Shown here: piece after piece, positions 47,929 through 64,000 of the stretch | How positions within the stretch are numbered: position 1 is the stretch's first letter | How the letters are laid out: the number at the start of each line of letters is the position of its first letter | Origin: Pseudomonas putida | GTDB taxonomy: Bacteria > Pseudomonadota > Gammaproteobacteria > Pseudomonadales > Pseudomonadaceae | Length of the DNA stretch: 64,000 nt | NCBI RefSeq assembly: GCF_002741075.1 | Contig: NZ_CP016634.1 | Location: 1,194,501-1,258,500 of the forward strand | Direction: 5' to 3' | Position numbers and translations under genes: made by a program | The notes under the pieces: generated by a model | The model's database searches: none | What the model saw: only the letters and a program-made list of their open reading frames with translations | Told to the model about the DNA's origin: nothing

Positions 47929-48042
47929 TGCACACCGATTTCATGCGGTAGACCGCGTACACGCGCAGCGCAGTCGCAGGCACTGTCGTATTCGGCTAGC
48001 CTGCCCGGTGCCAATCGGGCGGGTGAAACCGGGAGTACACTG

Positions 48043-48984
48043 ATGCGCGTGCAGGATGCGGACCTCAAGTCCCTGAGGATCTTCGAGACAGTGGTCAAGT
48101 GTGGCGGGTTCTCCGCCGCGCAGCCGGCGCTGAACATCAGCGTGTCGGCGATCAGCGAGCAGATGAGCCTGCTGGAGACCCGCCTGGGCGTGAGGCTCTG
48201 CGAGCGCGGTCGCTCGGGGTTTCGCCTGACCGATGAGGGCCAGGTGCTGTACGAGGCGGCGCAGCGCATGCTGACGGCGGTCGAGACGTTCTCCATGGAA
48301 GCCGCCACCCTGCGCCGGCAGTTGAGCGGGGCACTGCGGGTGGGGGTGATCGATGCCACCCTGACCGACCCGAGCAGCCCACTGACCTTGGCCATTCGCC
48401 GGTTTGGCCAGATGGCGCCGCAGGTCCACCTGCAGATCCACATCGACACCCCCAATGCGCTGGAACAGCGGGTCATGGACGGTCGCCTGCACCTGGCGGT
48501 CGGCCCGTTCCCCAGCCGCTTGCCGGGGCTGGACTACACGCCGTTGTACACCGAAGCCCACGGGCTGTTCTGTTCGCGCACCGACCCGCTGTTCGAGCAG
48601 GACGACGCCAGCATCACGCCGTTGTTGCTGAGCCAGGCGCGGCTGGCTGCGCGCACCTTCCTTGGCCGCTTCGACCTGGATCAACTCCAGGTGGAGCGGG
48701 CCGCTGGCAGCGTGGACAACGTCGAGGCGCGGGCGATGATGATCATCTCTGGCCAATACATCGGTTTCCTGCCGCTGCACTACGCCCAGCCCTGGGTCGA
48801 CAAGGGCGAAATACGCAGGCTGTGTCCTGGGCAGTTCGCCTCTGATCTGTGCGTTGACGTCATCCTGCGCCATGGCATCAGCCCGCCGCGCACCGTCGAG
48901 GCCTTCCAACAGCAATTGCTCGAATGCGCGGGGTTGAACCCATCGGGGGCGATGCTTCGGGAATTGCCGAAGTCAACTTCTTGA
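48043..48984 (+). CDS. LysR-family regulator
   Basis: A 313-residue LysR protein. HTH LKSLRIFETVVKCGGFSAAQPALNIS is followed by AISEQMSLLETRLG; the ligand domain begins near residue 90 (GALRVGVIDATLTDP). It lies between the efflux genes and the RidA/M20/BCCT genes, on the same strand. It could control either side; the 117-base gap ahead of ridA, and the way this regulator class sits beside catabolic genes, favour the right-hand set. Confidence 0.88.
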   Translation: MRVQDADLKSLRIFETVVKCGGFSAAQPALNISVSAISEQMSLLETRLGVRLCERGRSGFRLTDEGQVLYEAAQRMLTAVETFSMEAATLRRQLSGALRVGVIDATLTDPSSPLTLAIRRFGQMAPQVHLQIHIDTPNALEQRVMDGRLHLAVGPFPSRLPGLDYTPLYTEAHGLFCSRTDPLFEQDDASITPLLLSQARLAARTFLGRFDLDQLQVERAAGSVDNVEARAMMIISGQYIGFLPLHYAQPWVDKGEIRRLCPGQFASDLCVDVILRHGISPPRTVEAFQQQLLECAGLNPSGAMLRELPKSTS

Positions 48985-49101
48985 ACTGGCTATTTTTCCG
49001 AAGTATTGGCTTCTCTAGAGTCAGGGGCGAGACAACACAGCCAACCTGATGATTGCCTGACGGCCCGGCACTGGGGCCAGACTGGCAAAGGGAGCAATGC
49101 C

Positions 49102-50304
49102 ATGTCCGACCTCAATACCCCGATTTCCCTTGGCTCGCACCTGTCGGTGCAGCCGTTTCGCCAGCGCCGCCTGGGCCACCAGGTGTTCGTCGGTGGCGTC
49201 CTGCCGGTGGACGTCACCGGCAGACTTATGGGCGCAGGCGACATCGAAGCCCAGACCCACGCGGTGTTTCGCAATCTCAAGGCCGCCCTGCACGCCGCTG
49301 GCCTGGAAATGGCCGACCTGGTGCGCCTGAATACCTACTACGTCTTTGAGGGCGACGAGGCCCAGGCCACGGTCTACTGGGAGAAGATGACCCGCGTGCG
49401 CCTGCAGTACTTCCCGGATCCAGGCCCGGCAGCCACGGCCGTGCGTGTGCGTGGCATGGCCTGCTCTGGCGCGCTGATCCAGCTCGAAGCCGAGGCGCTG
49501 GCCGTGCCGGCCACGCAACGCCAGCGGATCATGCCGGCCAAGAGCTGGGACTGGAGCATTCCGGTGCCGTTGTCCCAGGGCTGGAAGGCGGGTCGCCAGG
49601 TGTGGGTCGGTGGCCAGGTTTCGGCGGACATGAGCGGTAAGGCGGTGGCCCTGGGGGACTTGGCGGGGCAAACCCACAACGTGCTTGAGCACATCCGCCA
49701 TGTGCTGCTCGATGCCGGCTCAAGCTTTGCCGACCTGACCCAGCTCAAGGTCTGCTACCTGCACGACGGCGACCAGGCCGCCGCCCAGGCAAGGCTCGAG
49801 CAGATCCTGGAGGATGTGCGCACGGCCTGTGGTGAACCGCTGCCGCCCGTCACTGCCTTTGGCGTCAACCTGCTCTATGAAGGCCTGTTGCTGGAAATCG
49901 ACGCCACCGCCCAGGTGGGCGTAGCCCATGACGACGGCGGTGACGGCGGCACGCAAGTGCGTCGTTGTGGCCCGAGCATCCAGGTTGCCGGTCAGAGTGC
50001 CGGGCAGGCCGGGATCGAGCAGGCAGCCGATGAGGCGCTGTCGCGCGTGGCCGATCAGTTGCGCAAGGTGGGCAGCTCGCCTCAAGCGATGGGTCATCTG
50101 CATGTGCTGGTGGCCGGCGATGAGGCCGACCGCCAACCCGACCGCGTCCTGTCGCTGTTCACCGAGGCCCTGGGCAGACTGTGTGGTGAGTCCGTGCCGC
50201 CGTTTACCGTGGTCAGGGTCAACGGGCTGCCCGATGGCGCCTCGATCCAGGTGGATGCGGTCGCTGTCGAGCTGGGTAACCCTGACGCGTCGAGGCAGCC
50301 ATGA
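49102..50304 (+). CDS. Triple-domain RidA-family protein
   Basis: A 400-residue protein built from three RidA (YjgF) modules at about 1-130, 140-270 and 278-398. Matching texts are FVGGVLPVDVTGRLMGAGD, WVGGQVSADMSGKAVALGD and QVAGQSAGQAGIEQ, and the C-terminal strands GALIQLEAEAL, GLLLEIDATAQ and GASIQVDAVAV. Normal RidA is ~130 residues and forms trimers; this chain supplies three in one. The active-site Arg of RidA is seen in domains 1 (TAVRVRG) and 3 (FTVVRVNG) but not 2 (VTAFGVN). AGGGAG precedes ATG 49102. It overlaps the M20 gene by four bases, so they act together; an enamine/imine hydrolysis role is inferred. Confidence 0.88.
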   Translation: MSDLNTPISLGSHLSVQPFRQRRLGHQVFVGGVLPVDVTGRLMGAGDIEAQTHAVFRNLKAALHAAGLEMADLVRLNTYYVFEGDEAQATVYWEKMTRVRLQYFPDPGPAATAVRVRGMACSGALIQLEAEALAVPATQRQRIMPAKSWDWSIPVPLSQGWKAGRQVWVGGQVSADMSGKAVALGDLAGQTHNVLEHIRHVLLDAGSSFADLTQLKVCYLHDGDQAAAQARLEQILEDVRTACGEPLPPVTAFGVNLLYEGLLLEIDATAQVGVAHDDGGDGGTQVRRCGPSIQVAGQSAGQAGIEQAADEALSRVADQLRKVGSSPQAMGHLHVLVAGDEADRQPDRVLSLFTEALGRLCGESVPPFTVVRVNGLPDGASIQVDAVAVELGNPDASRQP

Positions 50305-51437
50305 ACGCCTGCGAACAGGCGATCGAGCTGACCCGCAAGCTCGTGGCCTTCGACACGACCAATCCGCCGGGCAATGAGCAACCTTGTGCCGCGTTCCTGG
50401 CCCAGTTGCTGATCGAGGCGGGCTTTGCCGTCACTCTGCACGAGCTGTCGCCGGGGCGCGCCAGCCTGGTGGCCTACCTGGGGAACGGCCAGGGGCGGCC
50501 GCTGTGCTTTACCGGGCATCTGGATACCGTGCCGCTGGGCAAGGCGCCCTGGTCGGTCGACCCGTTCGCCGGGGAAATCCGCGAGGGCCGGTTGTACGGG
50601 CGCGGCAGCAGCGACATGAAGGCAGGGGTCGCGGCGTTCATCAGTGCGGCCTTGCAGGAGCGTGCGCTGATCGCTCAACGCGCAGGTGTCGTGCTGGTGC
50701 TGACCGCGAGCGAAGAGACCGGCTGCCAAGGCGCGGCGGCGTTGGTACGCGATGGCGTGGATCAGCACCGCGCCGGGGCGATCATCGTGGGTGAGATGAC
50801 AGCGAACTATCCCTTGATCGGTCACAAGGGCGCGCTTTGGCTCAAGCTGACGGCCCGGGGCAAGAGCGCCCATGGCTCGATGCCCGAGCAAGGCGATAAC
50901 GCCCTGTACAAAGTGGGCCGTGCCCTGGGCAAGATCGAGCAGTACCAGGTCGCCTCGCCACCCCACCCTGTGCTGGGCGCGACCAGCATCAGCGCCGGGA
51001 CGTTGCACGCGGGCAGCAGCATCAACGTGGTGCCGGACCTGGCAGAGCTGTGCGTCGACATTCGCAGCTTGCCCGGCACTTCCCATGCCGATGCCCGTGC
51101 CGCGTTGCTGGACACCTTGCAGCCGGATATCACCCAGGTCGACGCGGTGCTGGATCTGCCGGCTGTCTTCACCGACCTCGGCGATCCCTGGATCGCGACG
51201 GTCTACCGCCTCACCGAACAGGAGACCGGCGTACGCCCCGAACCGCGGGGCGCGAGCTACTTCACCGACGCCTGCGCGTTGCAGCACGCCCACCCGGGTG
51301 TGCCCATCGTGATCCTCGGCCCAGGCACGCCGCACATGGCGCACCAGACCGACGAGTATTGCGAAGTCGCCCGCATCGAGGAGGCCGTGCGCCTGTATCG
51401 GCGCTTGATCGTCGATTGGTGTGAGGAGGGCACCTGA
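50301..51437 (+). CDS. M20-family metallohydrolase (ArgE/DapE-like)
   Basis: A 378-residue zinc amidohydrolase. Metal ligands are visible in FTGHLDTVPLG (His), GRGSSDMKAG (Asp), ASEETGCQG (Glu pair, catalytic base and ligand), MTANYP region, and a C-terminal HMAHQTDEY (His). The dimerisation insert is in place. It should cut an N-acyl or related amide. The ATG overlaps the RidA stop. With the BCCT transporter downstream it suggests uptake and hydrolysis of an N-substituted compound (inference). Confidence 0.9.
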   Translation: MNACEQAIELTRKLVAFDTTNPPGNEQPCAAFLAQLLIEAGFAVTLHELSPGRASLVAYLGNGQGRPLCFTGHLDTVPLGKAPWSVDPFAGEIREGRLYGRGSSDMKAGVAAFISAALQERALIAQRAGVVLVLTASEETGCQGAAALVRDGVDQHRAGAIIVGEMTANYPLIGHKGALWLKLTARGKSAHGSMPEQGDNALYKVGRALGKIEQYQVASPPHPVLGATSISAGTLHAGSSINVVPDLAELCVDIRSLPGTSHADARAALLDTLQPDITQVDAVLDLPAVFTDLGDPWIATVYRLTEQETGVRPEPRGASYFTDACALQHAHPGVPIVILGPGTPHMAHQTDEYCEVARIEEAVRLYRRLIVDWCEEGT

Positions 51438-51538
51438 GGCCGCACCACCCACGCACTTCTATGACCGGCTGCGGACGCTGTTCATCCGCAGCCAAAGGCA
51501 CACAACAAGATCAATACAGCCGAATAGAAAGGTAACCC

Positions 51539-53185
51539 ATGAAAATTTCCTCAAACGCGAACCCGGCCCTCCCGGATGGCCAGGTTCGCACCCGCAAGGA
51601 CACCCTGCTGATCGTGGTCAGCGTGGTGTCGATCTTCCTCACAGTGTTTGCCCTGGCCGCTTTCCCCGCGCGCTCCGAGCAGGTCGCCAGCCAGTTGTTC
51701 CAGGGCGCCACGGACTTGCTGGCGGCGCCGGTGCTGCTGGTGTTCCTGGCGTTCGTCGTAGGGTCGCTGTTCATCATCTTCAGCAAGTACGGCAACGTTC
51801 GCCTGGGCAGTGGCAAGCCGCAGTTCAAGACCCTGCCGTGGGTGTTCATGTTCATCTGTGCAGGGCTCAGTTCAGCGACCCTGTATTGGGGGCTGGTGGA
51901 GTGGGCGTTCTACTACAACACGCCGGGGCTGAACATTGCCGCGCGCAGCCCCGAGGCGTTGGACATGAGCATTGCCTACGCCTTCTTCCACTGGGGCTTC
52001 GGCACCTGGGCGTGCTATGCCGTCGGGGGCATGGCCATGGCCTATTACTACCACGTGCGCAAGCATGACAAGCTGAGCCTGGCCGGCATCATCGAGGTGG
52101 TGACCGGGTTCAGGGCCAGCGGGCCGATCGGTCGCCTGATCGACATCATCTTCTTGATTGGCACGTTCGGCGGGCTGACGGTGACCATGGTGGTGACCAC
52201 CCAGACCTTCTCCAACAGCTTGTCCAACCTCACCGGCCTGCCCAATACCTTTGCGATGCAGGCGGGCATCGTGCTGGTGATCACCAGTATCTTCTCCCTG
52301 AGTTCCTACATCGGCCTGGAAGGCGGTATGCAGCGCCTGGCCAGCATGGTCTGCTGGGGCGCGCTGTTCTGCGCCCTGGCGGTGCTGGTGGTGGGGCCGA
52401 CGGGGTTCATCGTCAAGAACACGGTCAACGGCGTCGGCCTGATGTTCTCCAACTTCCTGCACATGAGTTTGTTCACCGACCCGGCCGGCGACGGGGAGTT
52501 CACCCGCAACTGGACGGTGTTCTACTGGTTCTGGGCGATTTCCTATACCCCGGCCGTGTCGATCTTCGTGGCGCGCGTGTCCCGCGGGCGGACCTTGAAG
52601 GAAGTGGCTGCGGCCCTGTTGCTCGGCGGCAGTGTGAGTTGCTGGGCGATCTTCGGCAGCCTCAGTGGCTATGGCATCGACCAGTTGCTCAAGGGCGTGC
52701 TGGATGTGCCAGCCGTGGTCGCCAACCAGGGCGGTGAGGTGGCCATCACCCAGTTGCTCAATGGCTTTCCGATGTCGGGCCTGGCCACGGCGTTCTACTT
52801 GTTCGTGATGGTGATCTTCCTGGCCTCGCACATCGATGCCTCGGCTTATACCGTCGCGGCGGCCACCACCCGCAATCTGCCGGAAGGCCGCGACCCTTCG
52901 CCGTTCCTGCGCCTGTTCTGGTGCGTGATGCTGGCGCTGGTGCCGCTGACCATGATCGCCAATCACCTGTCCCTGAAAACGGTGAAGACCTCGGTCATCC
53001 TCACCTCCATTCCGTTCTTCTTCCTGCTGCTGGTGATGGCCTACGGGTTCGTCCGCTGGCTGTACCGGGACTACCGCCATCGCAGTGTCGAGGACATCGA
53101 AGCCGAGGCTCGGCAGTTGGGGGGCGAGGGTGCGGATGTAGCGGGGGAGGTGGGTGTGAAGTGGAAGGATGAAGCGATCGTCTGA
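51539..53185 (+). CDS. BCCT-family transporter
   Basis: A 548-residue, 12-helix betaine/carnitine/choline transporter. AFFHWGFGTWACYAVGGMAM contains the conserved BCCT aromatic box; the tail is charged (EDIEAEARQLGGEGA). AAAGG lies six bases before ATG 51539. It follows the M20 gene by 101 bases on the same strand. Substrates are usually quaternary ammonium compounds; this member's is unknown. Downstream lie the regulatory sites of cycA. Confidence 0.9.
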   Translation: MKISSNANPALPDGQVRTRKDTLLIVVSVVSIFLTVFALAAFPARSEQVASQLFQGATDLLAAPVLLVFLAFVVGSLFIIFSKYGNVRLGSGKPQFKTLPWVFMFICAGLSSATLYWGLVEWAFYYNTPGLNIAARSPEALDMSIAYAFFHWGFGTWACYAVGGMAMAYYYHVRKHDKLSLAGIIEVVTGFRASGPIGRLIDIIFLIGTFGGLTVTMVVTTQTFSNSLSNLTGLPNTFAMQAGIVLVITSIFSLSSYIGLEGGMQRLASMVCWGALFCALAVLVVGPTGFIVKNTVNGVGLMFSNFLHMSLFTDPAGDGEFTRNWTVFYWFWAISYTPAVSIFVARVSRGRTLKEVAAALLLGGSVSCWAIFGSLSGYGIDQLLKGVLDVPAVVANQGGEVAITQLLNGFPMSGLATAFYLFVMVIFLASHIDASAYTVAAATTRNLPEGRDPSPFLRLFWCVMLALVPLTMIANHLSLKTVKTSVILTSIPFFFLLLVMAYGFVRWLYRDYRHRSVEDIEAEARQLGGEGADVAGEVGVKWKDEAIV

Positions 53186-53231
53186 TGTTGCACCCACGGG
53201 CCGCTGCGCGGCCCGTAAGGGCAGGGTCAGG

Positions 53232-53351
53232 CGGATTGATAGCGTTCCAATGTAGCGAAATCGTTCCGTCAGACGTGAGCGTACGGTTCATGACGCCTGC
53301 GCACGATTGCTCCGCGCGCAAACGCGCTTTTCCTGGAGCGACTTCATTACA
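53232..53351 (+). promoter_or_regulatory. Cluster of GcsR-type enhancer boxes upstream of cycA
   Basis: Three 18-bp elements stand in tandem: CGGATTG-ATAG-CGTTCCA (53232-53249), TGTAGCG-AAAT-CGTTCCG (53251-53268) and a weaker TCAGACG-TGAG-CGTACGG (53269-53286). A fourth, in reverse, is TGGAGCGACTTCATTACA at 53334-53351. The second differs from the GcsR box reported in P. aeruginosa, TGTAACG-N4-CGTTCCG, at one position. Assignment by eye. Confidence 0.7.
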
Positions 53352-53369
53352 TGCCGAACGCGACGGATC

Positions 53370-53401
53370 CCCCTGGAATGGGCGTTCCAGGGGCTTTTTT
53401 T
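53370..53401 (+). terminator. Rho-independent terminator behind the BCCT gene
   Basis: CCCCTGGAA, a six-base loop and TTCCAGGGG make a perfect 9-bp stem, followed by C and seven T. It lies between the enhancer boxes and the sigma-54 promoter and insulates cycA from upstream transcription. Confidence 0.92.
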
Positions 53402-53404
53402 GTC

Positions 53405-53420
53405 TGGCACAGACCTTGCT
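53405..53420 (+). promoter_or_regulatory. Sigma-54 promoter of cycA
   Basis: TGGCAC-AGACC-TTGCT is a perfect match to the sigma-54 -24/-12 consensus with GG-N10-GC spacing. It lies about 55-190 bases downstream of four enhancer boxes and 98 bases before the cycA start. Confidence 0.85.
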
Positions 53421-53518
53421 CCGGGGGTTGTGTCCAGCCGGGCAAGGCAATGGGTACCTGGCTGAGGCGTTTGAACTTGTGACGTTATAAAAATAATTCG
53501 ACTTACAAGGTGAAAACG

Positions 53519-54943
53519 ATGAACAACTCGCCGCTGGGTGTCAGCCCGCCTGACCAACAAGCGCACGAACTGCAACGCAACCTCTCCAACCGTCATATCC
53601 AATTGATCGCCATTGGCGGCGCCATCGGCACGGGCCTGTTCATGGGTTCGGGCAAGACCATCAGCCTGGCCGGGCCGTCGATCATCTTCGTCTACATGAT
53701 CATCGGCTTCATGCTGTTCTTCGTCATGCGGGCGATGGGCGAGCTGCTGTTATCGAACTTGAAATACAAGTCCTTCATTGATTTCGCCCACGACCTGCTC
53801 GGGCCCTGGGCCGGGTACTTCACCGGCTGGACGTACTGGTTCTGCTGGATCGTGACCGGTATCGCCGACGTCATTGCCATCTCCGCCTATTCGCAGTTCT
53901 GGTTCCCGGATATCCCGCAATGGGCGCCGGCGCTGGGCTGCGTGGGGCTGTTGCTGTCGCTCAACCTGATGACCGTGAAGATGTTCGGCGAGCTGGAGTT
54001 CTGGTTTGCCATGATCAAGATCGTGGCGATCTGCGCCTTGGTCTGCACCGGCTTCTACATGGTGGCCACGGCCTATCAGTCCTCCACCGGTAGCGTGGCG
54101 TCGCTGGCCAACCTGTGGAATGACCAGGGGATGTTCCCTCACGGTGTAATGGGCTTCTTCGCCGGCTTCCAGATCGCTGTGTTCGCCTTTGTCGGTATCG
54201 AGCTGGTCGGCACCACTGCGGCGGAAACCAAGAACCCGGAGCGCAACCTGCCACGGGCGATCAACTCGATCCCGCTGCGCATCATCGTCTTCTATGTGCT
54301 GGCCCTGATCGCCATCATGGCTGTCACGCCCTGGCGTGATGTGGTGCCGAGCAAGAGCCCATTCGTCGAGCTGTTCGTCCTGGCCGGCCTGCCGGCGGCG
54401 GCGGGGATCATCAACTTCGTGGTGCTGACCTCGGCGGCCTCGTCGGCCAACAGTGGTGTGTTCTCCACCAGCCGCATGCTCTACGGCCTGGCGGTGGACG
54501 GCGATGCACCGAGCAAGTTCAGTGCACTGTCCAAACGGGCGGTGCCGTCCAACGGCTTGATCTTCTCCTGCACCTGCCTGCTGGGCGGGGCGCTGCTGAT
54601 CTACCTGGTGCCGAACATGCTTGAGGCGTTCACCTTGATCACCACGGTGTCGGCAATCCTGTTCATGTGCGTGTGGTCGGTGATCCTGCTGTCCTACCTG
54701 GCCTACCGCAAGAAGCGCGACGACCTGCACCGCGCCTCGATCTACAAGATGCCCGGCGGCACCACCATGGCCTGGGCGTGCCTGGTGTTCTTCGCCTTCA
54801 TCACCGCTTTGCTGGCCCTGGAGGATGATACCCGCCAGGCGCTGTACTTCGTGCCGGTGTGGTTCGTGGTGATGGGGCTGTCCTATCGCTCGATCCGCCG
54901 CAAGAAGGCTCAGGCTGTGCAGCTTTCCTACGAAGTGGACTGA
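53519..54943 (+). CDS. cycA: D-serine/D-alanine/glycine transporter
   Basis: A 474-residue APC-family amino acid permease with 12 helices. NRHIQLIAIGGAIGTGLFMG is the family start, and the text throughout matches CycA. It imports glycine, D-alanine and D-serine by proton symport. ATG 53519 has AAGG eight bases upstream; GTG 53510 is less likely. It is preceded by its own sigma-54 promoter and followed by the gene for a TyrR-like sigma-54 activator (82-base gap). Glycine would be the substrate that feeds the cleavage system encoded to the right. Confidence 0.9.
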   Translation: MNNSPLGVSPPDQQAHELQRNLSNRHIQLIAIGGAIGTGLFMGSGKTISLAGPSIIFVYMIIGFMLFFVMRAMGELLLSNLKYKSFIDFAHDLLGPWAGYFTGWTYWFCWIVTGIADVIAISAYSQFWFPDIPQWAPALGCVGLLLSLNLMTVKMFGELEFWFAMIKIVAICALVCTGFYMVATAYQSSTGSVASLANLWNDQGMFPHGVMGFFAGFQIAVFAFVGIELVGTTAAETKNPERNLPRAINSIPLRIIVFYVLALIAIMAVTPWRDVVPSKSPFVELFVLAGLPAAAGIINFVVLTSAASSANSGVFSTSRMLYGLAVDGDAPSKFSALSKRAVPSNGLIFSCTCLLGGALLIYLVPNMLEAFTLITTVSAILFMCVWSVILLSYLAYRKKRDDLHRASIYKMPGGTTMAWACLVFFAFITALLALEDDTRQALYFVPVWFVVMGLSYRSIRRKKAQAVQLSYEVD

Positions 54944-55025
54944 ACCTCGGCGCCACTTCGGTTACCCCAGGGGGGCTGCATTTGCGTGCGGTCCCCTTTT
55001 GTCTTTTCAAGAAAAGGGACCCGCG

Positions 55026-56558
<1,533 letters not shown>

Positions 56559-56564
56559 AGCGGG

Positions 56565-56682
56565 CGGTTCGATTTCGCTCCACTGGAGCGGATTTGCTCC
56601 GCGTGTCCGTACGCCGTGCTTTACAAGGGATGGACCCAGCCGCGCTACTGCAAGCCTTGCGACCTGGAGCGATTACGCTCCA
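56565..56682 (+). promoter_or_regulatory. GcsR-type enhancer boxes upstream of gcvH
   Basis: CGGTTCG-ATTT-CGCTCCA (56565-56582) and TGGAGCG-GATT-TGCTCCG (56584-56601) stand one base apart, the same spacing as the first two cycA boxes. A third, TGGAGCG-ATTA-CGCTCCA (56665-56682), is a perfect palindrome. All have the 7-N4-7 plan of the reported GcsR site. Confidence 0.75.
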
Positions 56683-56748
56683 GGGTGAATACCGCAGAAA
56701 ACGCCTGAAAATTCCGTAATCCATTGAAAATAAAGAAATTTATAGAGT

Positions 56749-56764
56749 TGGCATCACCCTTGCT
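56749..56764 (+). promoter_or_regulatory. Sigma-54 promoter of gcvH operon
   Basis: TGGCAT-CACCC-TTGCT keeps the invariant GG-N10-GC and matches the -24/-12 consensus at all but one position. It is 67 bases past the third enhancer box, and an AT-rich stretch between them (56718-56747) could bind IHF. Confidence 0.85.
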
Positions 56765-56819
56765 CTTGTAGAAATCAGGTCCTGCAACCAGGGCCCATCC
56801 AATAACAAGAGGAAGATCC

Positions 56820-57197
56820 ATGAGCACGTTGCGTTTTACCCCCGAACACGAATGGCTGCGCCTGGAAGCGACCGGCGAACTGACTGTCGGCATCACCGCC
56901 TACGCCCAGCAGGCCTTGGGCGATGTGGTGTTCGTGCAGTTGCCGGAGCCGGGCCAGTACGGCGAGGGGAATGAAGTCGCGGTGCTGGAGTCGGTCAAGG
57001 CCGCCAGCAACATCACCATGCCGCTCAACGGCCAGGTGGTGGCGGTCAACCAGGCACTGGCCGACGACCCTGAGCTGGTCAACGCCTCGCCCATGGAAGA
57101 CGGCTGGTTCTTCCGCATCCAGGCGGACAACCTGGCGGACCTCGACACCTTGATGGACCAGGACGGCTACGACCGCTTCCTGGCCGACAACGGCTGA
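56820..57197 (+). CDS. gcvH: Glycine cleavage system H protein
   Basis: A 125-residue carrier: [17 protein letters not shown] and the lipoylation site [14 protein letters not shown] with Lys60. It shuttles the methylamine group from P to T. AAGAGGAAG precedes ATG 56820. It is the first gene of the operon, 13 bases before gcvP. Confidence 0.95.
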
Positions 57198-57210
57198 GCC
57201 AGGGGGCGCC

Positions 57211-60081
57211 ATGAGTACAGCACCGATTGCCCTGGGCACGGACAACAGCTTCATCGCCCGTCACATCGGCCCAAGCGAGGTCGACATCGAGGCCATGCTG
57301 GCGCTGACCGGCCATGGCTCGATCGAGGCCCTGATCGACAGCGTCATCCCCAACAGCATCAAGGGCACCAGTGTGCTCGCGCTGACCCGGGGGCAGGGCG
57401 AAAGCGAGGCCTTGGCTGCGATCAAGGCCATCGCCGCGAAAAACCAGCTGTTTCGCAACCACATCGGCCAGGGCTATTACCCGTGCCATACCCCGGCGCC
57501 CATCCTGCGCAACCTGCTGGAGAATCCGGCCTGGTACACCGCCTACACACCGTACCAGCCGGAAATCTCCCAAGGCCGCCTGGAAGCGCTGCTGAACTTC
57601 CAGACCCTGATCGTCGATCTGACCGGCATGGAGATCGCCAACGCCTCCCTGCTCGATGAGGCCACCGCCGCAGCCGAGGCCATGACCTTCTGCAAGCGTC
57701 TGGCCAAGAACAAGGCCCCGGCGTTCTTCGTCTCCAATGCCTGCCACCCACAGACCCTCGATGTGGTGCGCACCCGCGCCGAGCCATTGGGTATCGAAGT
57801 GGTGGTGGGTGATGAAGCACAACTGCAAGGGCAAAGCCTGGAGGCTTACTTCGGCCTGCTGCTGCAATACCCGGCCAGCACCGGCGCCATCGGCGATCAC
57901 CGGGCCCTGGTGGAGCGCGCCCATGACGCGGGCGCCTTGGTGGCGGTGGCGGCCGACCTGCTGGCGCTGACCCTGCTCACCCCGCCGGGTGAATTCGGTG
58001 CCGACGTGGTGTTCGGCAGTGCCCAACGCTTCGGCGTACCCCTGGGCTTCGGTGGGCCGCACGCGGCGTTCTTCGCCACCCGCGATGCCTTCAAGCGCGA
58101 CATGCCGGGCCGTCTGGTGGGGCTGTCCATCGACCGCTTCGGCAAGCCGGCCCTGCGCCTGGCCATGCAGACCCGCGAGCAACACATCCGCCGCGAGAAG
58201 GCCACCAGCAACATCTGTACGGCGCAGGTCCTGTTGGCCAACATCGCCAGCATGTATGCGGTCTACCACGGCCCGGAAGGCCTGACGCAGATCGCCCGGC
58301 GTGTGCACCGCCTGACCTCGATCCTGGTGCAGGGCTTGCGCCAGCTGGGGCATTCGGTGGAGCAGTCGCACTTCTTCGACACCGTCAGCGTGGTGACCGC
58401 GCGCCCCGTGGGTGAGGTCTTGGCCGCTGCCAATGCCCAGCGCCTGAACCTGCGTCCGATCGATTCGGTGCGTGTGGGGCTGTCGCTGGATGAAACCTGC
58501 GAGCAGCAGAGCGTCGAGGCCCTGTGGCAGGTGTTCGCGGCGCCGGGCCAGGCCCTGCCGGACTTCGCCGCGCTGGCGGCCTGCGGCATGGATTGCCTGC
58601 CGGCACCGTTGCTGCGCGAGAGTGCATTCCTGCAGCACGAGGTGTTCAACCGCTACCACTGCGAAACCGAGCTGATGCGTTACCTGCGTCGCCTGGCCGA
58701 CAAGGACCTGGCCCTGGACCGCAGCATGATCGCGCTGGGCTCGTGCACCATGAAGCTCAACGCCGCCAGCGAGATGATGCCGATCACCTGGCCGGAGTTC
58801 GGCGCCCTGCATCCGTTCGCCCCGGCTGAGCAGGCCCAGGGCTACCGGCAACTGACCGACGAGCTGGAGGCCATGCTCTGCGCGGCGACCGGTTATGACG
58901 CCATGTCGTTGCAGCCCAACGCTGGCTCCCAGGGCGAGTACGCAGGCTTGTTGGCGATCCGCGCCTACCATGCCAGCCGTGGCGAATCCGGCCGCGACGT
59001 GTGCCTGATCCCATCGTCGGCCCATGGCACCAACCCGGCCACGGCGCAGATGGCTGGCATGCGCGTGGTGGTGGTCAACTGTGACGCGCGTGGCAACGTC
59101 GATGTGGCCGACCTGCAGAGCAAGGCTGAGCAGCACAAGGACCGCCTGGCTGCGTTGATGATCACCTACCCCTCGACCCATGGCGTGTTCGAGGACGGCA
59201 TCACCCGCATCTGCGACATCATCCATGAGCACGGTGGCCAGGTGTACCTGGACGGCGCCAACATGAACGCCATGGTCGGGCTGTGCGCGCCCGGCAAGTT
59301 CGGCGGCGACGTCTCGCACCTGAACCTGCACAAGACCTTCTGCATTCCCCACGGTGGTGGCGGCCCAGGTGTCGGCCCGATCGGCGTCAAGGCGCACCTG
59401 GCGCCGTTCCTGCCGGGACATGGGCACATGGCGCGCAAGGACGGCGCAGTCAGCGCCGCGCCTTATGGCAGCGCCAGCATCTTGCCAATCACCTGGATGT
59501 ACATCCGCATGATGGGCGGGGAAGGGCTCAAGCGCGCCTCGCAGGTGGCGATCCTCAGCGCCAACTACATCGCCCGGCGCCTGGAGGAGCACTACCCGGT
59601 GCTCTACACCGGCGAGAACGGCCTGGTGGCGCACGAGTGCATCCTCGACCTGCGCCCGCTCAAGGACAGCAGCGGTATCAGCGTCGAGGACGTGGCCAAG
59701 CGCCTGATCGACTTCGGCTTCCATGCCCCGACCATGTCCTTCCCGGTGGCCGGGACCTTGATGGTCGAGCCGACCGAGAGCGAGTCCAAGGATGAACTGG
59801 ACCGCTTCTGCGAGGCGATGATCCGCATTCGCGAAGAGATCCGCGCGGTCGAGAACGGCACCCTGGACAAGCACGACAACCCGCTCAAGAACGCCCCGCA
59901 CACGGCGGCGGAGCTGGTCGGCGAGTGGGCCCACGGCTATAGCCGGGAGTTGGCGGTGTACCCGCAGGATTCGCTGCGCGACAACAAATACTGGCCGCCG
60001 GTGGGACGCGTGGACAACGTCTATGGCGACCGCAACCTGGCCTGCGCCTGTCCACCGATGTCGATCTACCAGGACGCCTGA
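57211..60081 (+). CDS. gcvP: Glycine dehydrogenase (decarboxylating), P protein
   Basis: A 956-residue PLP enzyme, normal full length, decarboxylating glycine and loading its methylamine on H-protein lipoate. [17 protein letters not shown] is the family start; the PLP lysine is in [18 protein letters not shown]. It is fused as two homologous halves, as in Proteobacteria. The frame opposite it is also open over 950 codons because of high GC, but that strand has no coding character. Confidence 0.96.
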
Positions 60082-60142
60082 TCGTCAGGGCTGCGCGCGC
60101 CCGGTGTGAGCGGATGCACCTGCGAATGCGAGGTTGGCCTGT

Positions 60143-60177
60143 CGGCCGCCTTCGCGGGTAAACCCGCTCCCACAGGG
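60143..60177. repeat. REP element inside the gcv operon
   Basis: CGGCCGCCTTCGCGGGTAAA followed by CCCGCTCCCACAGG is a full putida-type REP. It is in the 173-base gap between gcvP and glyA and can fold, so it may alter relative expression. Confidence 0.85.
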
Positions 60178-60254
60178 CCTGCGCCGCCAGAAAGTACACG
60201 AGCCTTTGCCTTTGCAGGATGTGTCTTCAACCATAACAACAAGGAAACACACAC

Positions 60255-61508
<1,254 letters not shown>

Positions 61509-61586
61509 GCCACCGTACTCGCCGCCGTGTGCCTGGAGGCGCGCGGCGGCTTGATCGACAACTTCATCGAATGCCAGGAGTCATCC

Positions 61587-62708
61587 GTGTCCAACGAACT
61601 ACTACAAAAAACGCCGCTGCATGCCCTGCATCTGCAACTGGGCGCCCGCATGGTGCCGTTCGCCGGCTACGACATGCCGGTGCAGTACCCGCTGGGGGTG
61701 CTCAAGGAGCACCTGCACACCCGTGCACAGGCCGGCCTGTTCGACGTCTCGCACATGGGGCAGATCCGTCTGCATGGTGCCAACGCCGCCAAGGCCCTGG
61801 ATACCTTGGTGCCGGTCGATATTGTCGACCTTCCGGTGGGCATGCAGCGCTATGCGCTGTTCACCGACGCCCAAGGCGGCATCCTCGATGACCTGATGGT
61901 GGCCAACGCCGGGGACTACCTGTTCCTGGTGGTCAACGCCGCGTGCAAGGCGCAGGATTTGCAGCACCTCAAGCAGCATCTGGAAGGGCTGTGCGAGGTC
62001 GAGTCGTTGTTCGACAGCCGCGCCTTGCTCGCCCTGCAGGGCCCGGCGGCCGCCACGGTGCTGGCGCGCCTGGCCCCTGAAGTCAAAACCATGACTTTCA
62101 TGCAGTTCGCTCGCGTGCGGCTGTTAGGTGTCGACTGTTATGTCAGCCGCTCGGGCTACACCGGTGAGGACGGCTACGAGATCTCCGTGCCGACCCAGGA
62201 CGCCCTGATGCTGGCCCGTTCGTTGCTCGCCGAGCCCGAAGTCGAGGCCATCGGCCTGGGCGCGCGTGACTCGCTGCGTCTGGAGGCCGGGCTGTGCCTG
62301 TATGGCCACGACATGGCCCAGCACACCACGCCGGTCGAGGCGAGTCTGAGCTGGGCGATTTCCAAGGCCCGCCGTGCCGACGGCGCGCGCCCGGGTGGCT
62401 TCCCCGGTGCTGAACGGATCCTCGCCCAGTTGCGCGATGGCGTGCCGAGCAAGCGGGTCGGGCTGCTGACCCAGGAGCGGGTGCCGGTGCGCGAAGGTGC
62501 GCCATTGCTCGATGCCCAAGGTCAGGTGATCGGCCAGGTCACCAGCGGTGGTTTCGGCCCGAGCCTGGGCGGCCCATTGGCGATGGGCTACGTGCAGACC
62601 GCATTCGCGGCCCTGGGCACCGAGGTCTTCGCCCAGGTGCGGGGCAAGCGGGTGCCGATGAGCGTGACCCGCACGCCGTTCGTGGCGCACCGTTACTACC
62701 GAGGCTGA
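61587..62708 (+). CDS. gcvT: Glycine cleavage system T protein (aminomethyltransferase)
   Basis: A 373-residue enzyme releasing ammonia and passing the one-carbon unit to tetrahydrofolate. MVPFAGYDMPVQYP, FDVSHMGQI and GYTGEDGYEI are family motifs, and the tail KRVPMSVTRTPFV is normal. GTG 61587 has AGGAG six bases upstream. In P. aeruginosa sdaA lies between glyA and gcvT; here that position has only 78 bases. Confidence 0.95.
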   Translation: MSNELLQKTPLHALHLQLGARMVPFAGYDMPVQYPLGVLKEHLHTRAQAGLFDVSHMGQIRLHGANAAKALDTLVPVDIVDLPVGMQRYALFTDAQGGILDDLMVANAGDYLFLVVNAACKAQDLQHLKQHLEGLCEVESLFDSRALLALQGPAAATVLARLAPEVKTMTFMQFARVRLLGVDCYVSRSGYTGEDGYEISVPTQDALMLARSLLAEPEVEAIGLGARDSLRLEAGLCLYGHDMAQHTTPVEASLSWAISKARRADGARPGGFPGAERILAQLRDGVPSKRVGLLTQERVPVREGAPLLDAQGQVIGQVTSGGFGPSLGGPLAMGYVQTAFAALGTEVFAQVRGKRVPMSVTRTPFVAHRYYRG

Positions 62709-62726
62709 AGGCCTTCTTGCCGGAGC

Positions 62727-63716
62727 ATGAACATGAACGAAATCCTGCCTGTCGCCCCACGGCCAGCCCCCCTGGAGCCCGGAATCAAGTTGCGCGGCGC
62801 CGAGAAGGTGGCGCGGATCCCGGTGAAGATCCTGCCCACCGAGGAGGTGCCGCGCAAACCGGAGTGGATCCGCGTGCAGATCCCGACCACGCCGGAGGTG
62901 GCGCGCATCAAAGCCTTGCTGCGCAAACACAAGCTGCACAGCGTGTGTGAGGAGGCCTCCTGCCCGAACCTTGGAGAGTGTTTCTCAGGCGGCACGGCGA
63001 CGTTCATGATCATGGGCGACATCTGCACGCGCCGTTGCCCGTTCTGCGACGTCGGCCATGGCCGGCCCAAACCGCTGGATGTCGATGAGCCCCGGAACCT
63101 GGCGATCGCCATCGCCGAGTTGCGCTTGAAATACGTGGTCATCACCTCGGTCGACCGGGACGATCTGCGCGACGGCGGGGCGCAGCACTTCGTCGATTGC
63201 CTGCGCGAGATCCGCCAGCGTTCGCCGGGTATCCAACTGGAAACCCTGGTACCGGATTATCGTGGACGCATGGACGTGGCGCTGGCGATCACCGAGCAGG
63301 AGCCGCCGGATGTGTTCAACCACAACCTGGAAACCGTGCCGCGCCTGTACAAGGCGGCACGGCCGGGTTCGGACTTCGAGTGGTCGCTGGATCTCTTGGA
63401 AGGTTTCAAACAGCGTATCCCCGGCGTGCCGACCAAGTCAGGGCTGATGCTGGGGCTGGGCGAGACCGACGAAGAGGTGCTTGAAGTGATGCAGCGCATG
63501 CGCGAGCATCAGGTCGACATGCTGACCCTGGGGCAGTATCTGCAGCCCTCGCGCAGCCATTTGCCGGTGCAGCGCTTCGTGCACCCGGACACCTTTGCCT
63601 GGTTCGCCGAGCAGGCGTTGGCCATGGGCTTCAGCAACGTGGCCTCGGGGCCATTGGTGCGCTCTTCGTACCATGCCGATCAGCAGGTGGCGGCGGTGGC
63701 GGCGAGCGTCGGGTAG
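62727..63716 (+). CDS. lipA: Lipoyl synthase (operon-borne paralogue)
   Basis: A 329-residue radical-SAM enzyme inserting sulfur into octanoyl groups. The radical-SAM cluster is in [14 protein letters not shown]; the auxiliary cluster is [12 protein letters not shown]; the C-terminal RSSYHADQ serine ligand is present. It is 18 bases behind gcvT and so under the same control, probably to meet the lipoate demand of newly made GcvH. A housekeeping lipA next to lipB is expected elsewhere (knowledge of the genus). Confidence 0.94.
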
Positions 63717-63770
63717 CAAGACTGGATGCGCAGGCGGTCGAAAGCGTCCGCCCGCGTGTCCAGCGACGCC

Positions 63771-64000
63771 CTATGTCGAGGCCAGCCCTTGCGCTGGGCT
63801 GACGTCCGGGGCGGCCAGCGCCTTGGTGTCGATGCGACGGAACAGGAACTTGCTTTTGTTCTGGTCGAACACATAGATCGCTGCCAGCGGAATGGCCGTG
63901 ATCAGCACCCCGGTGAGCACATCGGCGACCGCATGATTGAAGAGGTTGAGCAGCGGTACAGGCATGAGTGCCTTGGACAAGGTATTGGCGACATACAGGC
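63771..64000 (-). CDS. Membrane protein, C-terminal part (partial)
   Basis: The frame enters from the right edge and ends at 63771. It contains one hydrophobic segment (VADVLTGVLITAIPLAAIYVF) followed by a basic tail NKSKFLFRRIDTKALAA. An internal start at 63980 (TTG) is possible, but the frame is open to the window end, so this is probably the C-terminal end of a longer membrane protein. The family is not recognisable from this piece. Confidence 0.5.
   Translation of the reverse strand, partial: LYVANTLSKALMPVPLLNLFNHAVADVLTGVLITAIPLAAIYVFDQNKSKFLFRRIDTKALAAPDVSPAQGLAST

Follow-up and report, generated by a model that had tools for sequence, protein, structure and literature searches.

A predicted GcsR-type enhancer and sigma-54 promoter upstream of a cycA-type transporter gene, next to a paralogue of GcsR, in Pseudomonas putida

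Does GcsR-type control extend from glycine cleavage to glycine uptake in Pseudomonas, and if so, which regulator would read the operators? In P. aeruginosa, GcsR activates gcs2 and has three binding boxes at gcvH2; the PAO1 consensus, TGTAACG-N4-CGTTCCG, has mixed arms (T and G), and the CG core of the boxes has been called invariable (PMC4894688). Fifteen other genes changed in the P. aeruginosa gcsR mutant, including the transporter genes dctA, narK1 and narK2, were judged not to be direct targets and no amino acid uptake gene figures among the changes; the words cycA, permease and transporter are absent from the accessible part of that paper (PMC4894688). Mapping by 3D-seq gave one main GcsR peak in P. 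aeruginosa, at gcvH2, and the poorly supported others may be false positives (PMC9159945). In P. fluorescens the activity of GcsR depends on glycine, and cycA is mentioned neither in the accessible text of that study (PMC10482368) nor, as a target, in the accessible text of two others (PMC5343134; PMC8657755). The initial annotation of the DNA studied here had considered cycA a target not described before, and we agree: among open-licence PMC papers we found no description linking cycA with GcsR or RpoN in Pseudomonas, an absence that such a search leaves unproven.

We analyzed a stretch of 64,000 nucleotides from P. putida, hereafter the window. Scanning it with a GcsR box matrix returned six strong sites, three at gcvH and three at cycA. 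Those at cycA, which precedes a GcsR-like regulator gene that we call gcsR2, lie in the following setting (loci counted are the 16 in which cycA is linked to gcsR2).

51539-53185: BCCT transporter gene, upstream neighbour of the cycA intergenic region
53232-53249, + strand: predicted GcsR-family box 1, CGGATTG-ATAG-CGTTCCA, 18.3 bits, in 16/16 loci and weakest in L058 at 8.0 bits
53251-53268, + strand: predicted GcsR-family box 2, TGTAGCG-AAAT-CGTTCCG, 23.8 bits, one T arm and one G arm
53334-53351, + strand: predicted GcsR-family box 3, TGGAGCG-ACTT-CATTACA, 18.7 bits, one G and one T arm, in 16/16 loci
53370-53403, + strand: intrinsic terminator between box 3 and the promoter, 10-bp stem and T7 tail, from a scan of the window only
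53405-53420, + strand: sigma-54 promoter of cycA, TGGCACAGACCTTGCT, a perfect -24/-12 site TGGCAC-N5-TTGCT
53489-53496, + strand: A-rich motif AAAAATAA in the conserved cycA leader
53519-54943, + strand: cycA, amino acid permease of the D-serine/D-alanine/glycine transporter family (NF008272, 875.5 bits, cut-off 732; PF00324)

CycA scores above the cut-off of the NCBIfam equivalog model NF008272; its name comes from homology, and its substrate would by the same token be glycine. The genes upstream (48043-53185) encode a LysR protein, a double RidA-type protein, an M20 peptidase and the BCCT transporter, a set found in one of 13 fetched loci (G015/L038). The terminator at 53370-53403 probably belongs to the BCCT gene; terminator-like sites number seven in 53100-57300, compared with 3.3 +/- 2.0 in shuffled sequence. 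No known RNA family matched at the Rfam gathering score within 48000-64000.

The box matrix was seeded with the published PAO1 consensus and trained on sequence upstream of gcvH in 30 other loci, with three boxes each. Neither cycA nor window sequence entered the training, and one training locus (L007) comes from the same genome; scores of cycA boxes are out-of-sample and those of gcvH boxes in-sample except in the window. Outside cycA and gcvH the best site in the 64 kb reached 7.5 bits. Taken singly or as sums of the two to four highest, scores in 5,000 first-order shuffles of 53186-53404 never reached those of the real sequence. The perfect TGGCAC-N5-TTGCT reported earlier upstream of cycA is indeed there. 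TGGCAYN5TTGCW matches the genome (5.85 Mb) 13 times, the cycA and gcvH promoters included, and the backwards pattern five times. The cycA start codon lies 114 bp past this site, which reads TGGCAY-N5-TTGCT in 14 of the 16 loci and TGGCACAGAACGTGCT in the other two (L049 and L050). An exact box pattern matched 19 genomic sites: cycA and a second gcvH have three each, the window gcvH has one and the other 12 are single. Since the same pattern read backwards matched 52, the number alone is uninformative and clustering is the notable feature. Multi-box clusters were confined to cycA and the second gcvH (L007; boxes at C2:4021164/4021183/4021264, promoter TGGCCG-N5-TTGCT) in this exact scan, which misses mismatched clusters, among them two of the window's own gcvH boxes.

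The locus had first been described as carrying four 18-bp elements with a 7-N4-7 plan, three in tandem and the last inverted. Three boxes of 18-24 bits bear this out, with 19 bp from box 1 to box 2 and 83 bp from box 2 to box 3, but the third tandem element does not. It came without coordinates and we took it to lie at about 53274-53291, where the best score at offsets of +20 to +28 from box 2 was -17.9 bits; at this position 15 of the 16 cycA loci stay at or below the 99th background percentile and only L040 exceeds it, at 4.4 bits. The rejected position overlaps a partly conserved GTTTACGACG-like stretch (53285-53295 and aligned positions) between boxes 2 and 3, which is not a box. The inverted element corresponds to the box at 53334-53351 (18.7 bits), but its orientation means little because the site is near-palindromic.

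Which protein would act here? The adjacent regulator had been taken for GcsR itself; we find a distinct paralogue instead.

55026-56558, + strand: gcsR2, TyrR/GcsR-like enhancer-binding protein with Gly-497 in its recognition helix

The genome encodes two GcsR-like proteins, GcsR2 and a canonical-type GcsR1 (C2:4014618), which are 73% identical. The gene for GcsR1 adjoins what we take to be arcC- and gltS-like genes, and its region (L007, G000:C2:4008000-4027500) has its own gcvH-gcvP-gcvT cluster. A canonical GcsR would belong to the clade of the copy near gltS/arcC, with more than 80% identity to the PAO1 protein (PMC4894688); GcsR2 falls in a separate clade (100/100) from the canonical-type copy of the same genome. 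The tree of Pseudomonas proteins divides into canonical GcsR1, GcsR2 (100/100) and a LysR-linked GcsR3, the last represented by L051, L055, L067, L068, L070, L071 and L086 and having a different operator (TGTATTG-N4-CAATACA, with 69-70 bp between boxes 2 and 3). In a genus sample of 298 genomes, 283 encode a GcsR-like protein at E<=1e-180; a GcsR2 of the window type (at least 82% identity) occurs in only 14, each of which has a second match at E<=1e-180. GcsR2 carries the sigma-54 AAA+ domain (PF00158, 221.6 bits) and the TyrR-type HTH (PF18024, 44.8 bits; TIGR04381, 80.4 bits, cut-off 30), and scores 441.4 against the TyrR equivalog model, below its cut-off of 576. Its N-terminus gives PAS matches below the Pfam cut-off and no ACT match. 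Residues 1-115 match the TyrR chain 2jhe (1.6e-13) and residues 455-506 the DNA-binding domain of a TyrR homologue, 1g2h.

Apart from GcsR1, a single protein of the genome matches the query along its full length, a PhhR-like one (C2:3584453, 42% identical), and such a TyrR-family activator might use the cycA boxes instead. Box 3 contains a half-site, TTACA, that resembles TyrR sites, and of the three cycA boxes box 2 alone has the complete CG core by which GcsR sites differ from TyrR sites in PAO1 (CG at 6-7, CG or GG at 12-13); box 1 (TG/CG) and box 3 (CG/CA) have it in one arm, and the window's gcvH box 2 departs from it as well (CG/TG). Yet every cycA box keeps the core in at least one arm, and the layout equals that of gcvH. 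Control by the PhhR-like protein is most unlikely.

Downstream of gcsR2 lies a glycine cleavage cluster with an enhancer and promoter of its own.

56565-56582, + strand: predicted gcvH box 1, 21.1 bits
56584-56601, + strand: predicted gcvH box 2, 19.2 bits
56665-56682, + strand: predicted gcvH box 3, TGGAGCG-ATTA-CGCTCCA, 25.4 bits
56717-56729, - strand: IHF-like site between gcvH box 3 and the promoter, one mismatch to the IHF consensus
56749-56764, + strand: sigma-54 promoter of gcvH, TGGCATCACCCTTGCT, a genome pattern match
56820-57197, + strand: gcvH (TIGR00527, 134.8 bits)
57211-60081, + strand: gcvP (TIGR00461)
60255-61508, + strand: glyA (NF000586)
61527-62708, + strand: gcvT (TIGR00528); the true start may be about 61596
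62727-63716, + strand: open reading frame and conserved neighbour in the same cluster, presumably a lipA-type gene

The cycA-gcsR2-gcvH order recurs in 12 of the 13 other gcsR2 genomes of the genus sample and at L056, L058 and L059. Two gcsR2-linked clusters, L049 and L050, showed no gcvP between gcvH and glyA. In the cycA leader, AAAAATAA fits what we take to be the Hfq/Crc motif AANAANAA, which lies within 60 nt of the cycA start in 15 of 16 loci. The same motif is present in 7/20 gcvH leaders of the GcsR2 type, 0/11 of the GcsR1 type and 1/7 of the GcsR3 type, and the window's gcvH leader near 56801 is also A-rich with AANAANAA. Such leaders at cycA and at some gcvH genes suggest catabolite control.

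The layout of the cycA enhancer is conserved: box 1, box 2 at 19 bp, box 3 82/83 bp further on and then the promoter are found at 16/16 gcsR2-linked cycA genes, with the duplicate records L057 (= L040), L175 (= L058) and L180 (= L060) counted once, and at 0/20 cycA homologues unlinked to gcsR2. The latter, hand-picked from a search with matches in 120/296 genomes, comprise five at 82-85% identity and fifteen at 74-81%; they have neither the three boxes nor a promoter match within 150 bp. Among them, one site of 7.1 bits occurs at L155, a looser promoter pattern run over 420 bp finds one match at L142, at -392, and L149, L151 and L152 are without boxes though gcsR2 is present elsewhere in the genome. 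This rules out boxes common to all Pseudomonas cycA genes. The difference between linked and unlinked genes, together with boxes and a promoter that are real, argues that cycA is very likely a target of sigma-54 and a GcsR-type activator.

Our layout scan imposed no spacing constraint, and the 19-bp distance between boxes 1 and 2 came out in 16/16 cycA regions as well as in 20/20 GcsR2, 11/11 GcsR1 and 7/7 GcsR3 gcvH regions. Over these 16 cycA and 38 gcvH regions, covering three regulator types, a pair 19 bp apart start to start is followed by a third box 69-85 bp on; a 19-bp pair and a distant single box are thus the usual layout of GcsR-type enhancers. Three boxes ahead of a -24/-12 site, the architecture of a GcsR-activated promoter, are found at cycA. 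The distance from box 3 to the promoter is 59-73 bp at cycA (69-73 and 59) against 81-84 bp at gcvH. The differences amount to roughly one and two turns, and an analysis of helical phasing found no periodicity near 10.5, concentration rising to the longest period tried, 12. A search for IHF-like sites (at most one mismatch to the IHF consensus) found one between box 3 and promoter in 36/38 gcvH regions, where shuffling predicts 4.5. At cycA the same interval gave 0/16, which for an expectation of 0.3 means merely no enrichment, and the interval between boxes 2 and 3 gave 2/16 (expectation 0.2).

One might ask whether the cycA boxes are a relic of the event that placed cycA before gcsR2 and no longer matter, given that cycA box 3 fits worse than its gcvH counterpart. 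The alignment of the 16 cycA regions speaks against it. Conserved blocks appear there at the boxes, at the promoter and in the leader next to the start codon, while much of the flank has diverged. Few upstream blocks are kept as well as the boxes and the promoter out to the L049/L050 branch, and 16/16 loci have a consensus or near-consensus promoter. A relic is hardly credible. In L046 (G217), cycA has an in-frame stop at codon 308, with boxes and promoter intact.

As for its origin, cycA precedes gcsR2 in 13/14 genomes, the exception (L048) having a LysR gene there. One GcsR2 subgroup of the tree (support 95/92) carries cycA in each of its 17 rows, two of which are the same genome; cycA is absent at the GcsR2 rows L048, L060, L061 and L062 and at the Gly-type loci of other genera that were examined, save L175 (= L058). 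The stretches examined of GcsR2 or Gly-type loci without cycA have no box of at least 9 bits before the regulator gene. With cycA confined in this way to one subgroup, a single lineage seems to have gained the enhancer.

When each group must have at least 85% of one residue, a single column of the DNA-binding domain tells GcsR2 from the rest. It is residue 497 of the recognition helix: Gly in 20/20 GcsR2, Ala in 11/11 GcsR1 and in 9/10 GcsR3 proteins. We compared it with arm position 3 of the gcvH operators at 55 loci, one row per distinct GcsR protein, leaving that position unscored; other matrix positions came from the same training loci, and the triple-box search imposed the 19-bp pair with 60-95 bp to the third box. 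At the 32 Gly-type loci the base is G in 191/192 arms, and at the 23 Ala-type loci it is T in 120/138. The 55 loci include 17 (12 Gly, 5 Ala) that were added once the pattern had been noticed, and L053, L054, L087 and L192, which gave no gcvH, stand outside the count. L191, from another genus, has gcvH 3 kb from gcsR, mixed boxes resembling the PAO1 consensus, Ala in the helix and a box spacing of 20; the search misplaced its boxes, whose six arms (five not T) are within the 138. Gly for Ala in the GcsR2 recognition helix goes with G for T in the operator arms. Because the Gly type is one clade, its 32 loci probably reflect a single evolutionary event over and over and not 32 independent ones.

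The cycA operators look like hybrids. T occupies arm position 3 in 30/96 cycA arms as against 0/96 gcvH arms of the same 16 genomes. Boxes 2 and 3 combine one T and one G arm in 28/32 cases, and the T arm of box 2 is on the changed side in the window and in L039. Mostly mixed arms in these two boxes may mean that the canonical paralogue reads cycA too. With a matrix for GcsR2, cycA boxes 1-3 average 17.7, 17.7 and 10.3 bits, compared with 20.9, 22.2 and 25.8 for its own gcvH boxes (in-sample except the window); with one for GcsR1, they average 14.4, 22.7 and 17.0 bits. Box 1 thus scores higher with the GcsR2 matrix and the other two with that of GcsR1; the three window boxes sum to 48.2 (GcsR2) and 59.5 (GcsR1). 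The proposal that glycine uptake belongs to the GcsR regulon therefore needs qualifying: GcsR-type boxes and a sigma-54 promoter in 16/16 loci speak for it, but the gene next to cycA encodes a paralogue, and GcsR1 suits boxes 2 and 3 better. Either GcsR2 would tolerate the mixed cycA sites at lower affinity, or GcsR1 would take part.

GcsR2 could well control cycA alone, a prospect that we put a little short of even, with the T arms lowering affinity, so that uptake would switch on only at more glycine than catabolism needs. The boxes are linked with gcsR2 in the loci examined, and the GcsR2 matrix still ranks the three window boxes (18.1, 17.4 and 12.7 bits) as its best sites outside gcvH, yet an arm position that is G in all but one of the Gly-type gcvH arms suggests that T is disfavoured. 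Joint action of GcsR1 and GcsR2 at cycA is also conceivable, if on balance doubtful: GcsR2 would sit on box 1 and the G arms and GcsR1 on the T arms, as separate homodimers or as heterodimers, one importer thereby serving both cleavage systems. This would account for the excess of T arms over gcvH and for the mixed boxes with their switched T arm; a candidate partner, the second match at E<=1e-180, is present in 14/14 gcsR2 genomes of the genus sample, and precedent exists in VnfA1 and VnfA3 of Azotobacter, paralogous sigma-54 activators on the same promoters (PMC9542535). Against it, the boxes were seen only where gcsR2 adjoins cycA, and mixed arms also occur at box 2 of GcsR1's own gcvH (9/11 loci) and in the PAO1 consensus, so that a heterodimer is not required at cycA and one homodimer probably suffices. 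A fuller history is more speculative and, taken whole, rather unlikely: duplication would have yielded two glycine-sensing activators, split by the Ala-to-Gly change and the T-to-G change in the operators, with cycA keeping a hybrid enhancer read by both or by a heterodimer and coupling uptake to two insulated cleavage systems.

A positive loop, with the regulator gene next in line in the same regulon, had also been proposed; it would have transcription of cycA run on into gcsR2. The arrangement allows it, gcsR2 being downstream of cycA on the same strand after a gap of 77-94 nt, but that gap holds a further element.

54969-54998, + strand: terminator-like hairpin with a T-rich tail, between cycA and gcsR2

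A GC-rich hairpin of 12-17 pairs (-20 to -33 kcal/mol) is present in the gap at 16/16 loci, followed by 4 to 8 T in 12 nt, hence a poor tail in some loci. Over 15 sequences (L038 left out), 5/13 pairs show compensatory changes and four are lost in one to three of the sequences. For the window, folding of the gap is predicted instead to pair bases near the gcsR2 start. If a terminator, the hairpin should reduce read-through into gcsR2. Its conservation weakens the case for the proposed loop from cycA to gcsR2, which may still operate.

Taken together, the region is most probably the enhancer and promoter of a glycine-inducible cycA under the control of sigma-54 and a GcsR-type activator, the local one being GcsR2. 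Its boxes, spacing, promoter and conservation, the paralogy of the regulators and the residue-to-base correlation are computational results. Glycine-activated AAA+ activators of the GcsR type would bind the three palindromic boxes, a 19-bp pair and a single box 82-83 bp on, and loop to RNA polymerase-sigma54 at 53405-53420 to start transcription of cycA, so that glycine import would increase in step with the glycine cleavage operon, which lies some 2 kb downstream of cycA. GcsR2 would act as the local activator; this paralogue has Gly instead of Ala at residue 497, and its gcvH operators carry G in place of T at the third arm position. Binding, the response to glycine, the transported substrate and the paralogue acting at cycA are what we infer from these results. 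Points that count against this reading are the weaker fit to the GcsR2 matrix, the incomplete CG core in boxes 1 and 3, the missing IHF-like site, the shorter distance from box 3 to the promoter, the lack of an uptake gene among the changes in the P. aeruginosa gcsR mutant, and the in-frame stop in cycA of L046. On this reading, glycine uptake in another Pseudomonas lineage would join a regulon that seems limited to one promoter in P. aeruginosa. The 55 gcvH loci with distinct regulators offer a clean natural example of an enhancer-binding protein that changed its specificity after duplication, and the apparently hybrid enhancer a testable one for paralogous sigma-54 activators sharing or mixing on one enhancer.

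Several known systems invite comparison. TyrR of E. coli and PhhR of Pseudomonas, which serve aromatic amino acids, share domain order and HTH type with GcsR2; unlike their sites, the boxes here mostly keep the GcsR CG core. In E. coli, cycA is under GcvB/GcvA control, and we know of no sigma-54 enhancer there. The transporter is homologous, E. coli CycA taking up glycine (PMC9769978), and the GcsR operator is a variant of TGTAAA-N6-TTTACA, the TyrR/PhhR type (PMC4894688). VnfA1 and VnfA3 of Azotobacter vinelandii likewise are paralogous sigma-54 activators that share promoters, but they serve nitrogenase in response to a metal signal, and their sharing is experimental whereas ours is a reading (PMC9542535). 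The closest likeness is to GcsR and gcs2 of PAO1 (Sarwar et al., 2016, PMC4894688), with a TyrR-like activator, three 18-bp boxes of the 7-N4-7 plan, a sigma-54 promoter and a glycine cleavage operon adjoining the regulator gene. Here, by contrast, a predicted second target, cycA, has an enhancer of its own, with box 3 closer to the promoter than at the gcvH promoters compared and no IHF-like site, and the regulator encoded alongside is a distinct paralogue, marked by Gly-497 and by gcvH operators of the G type.
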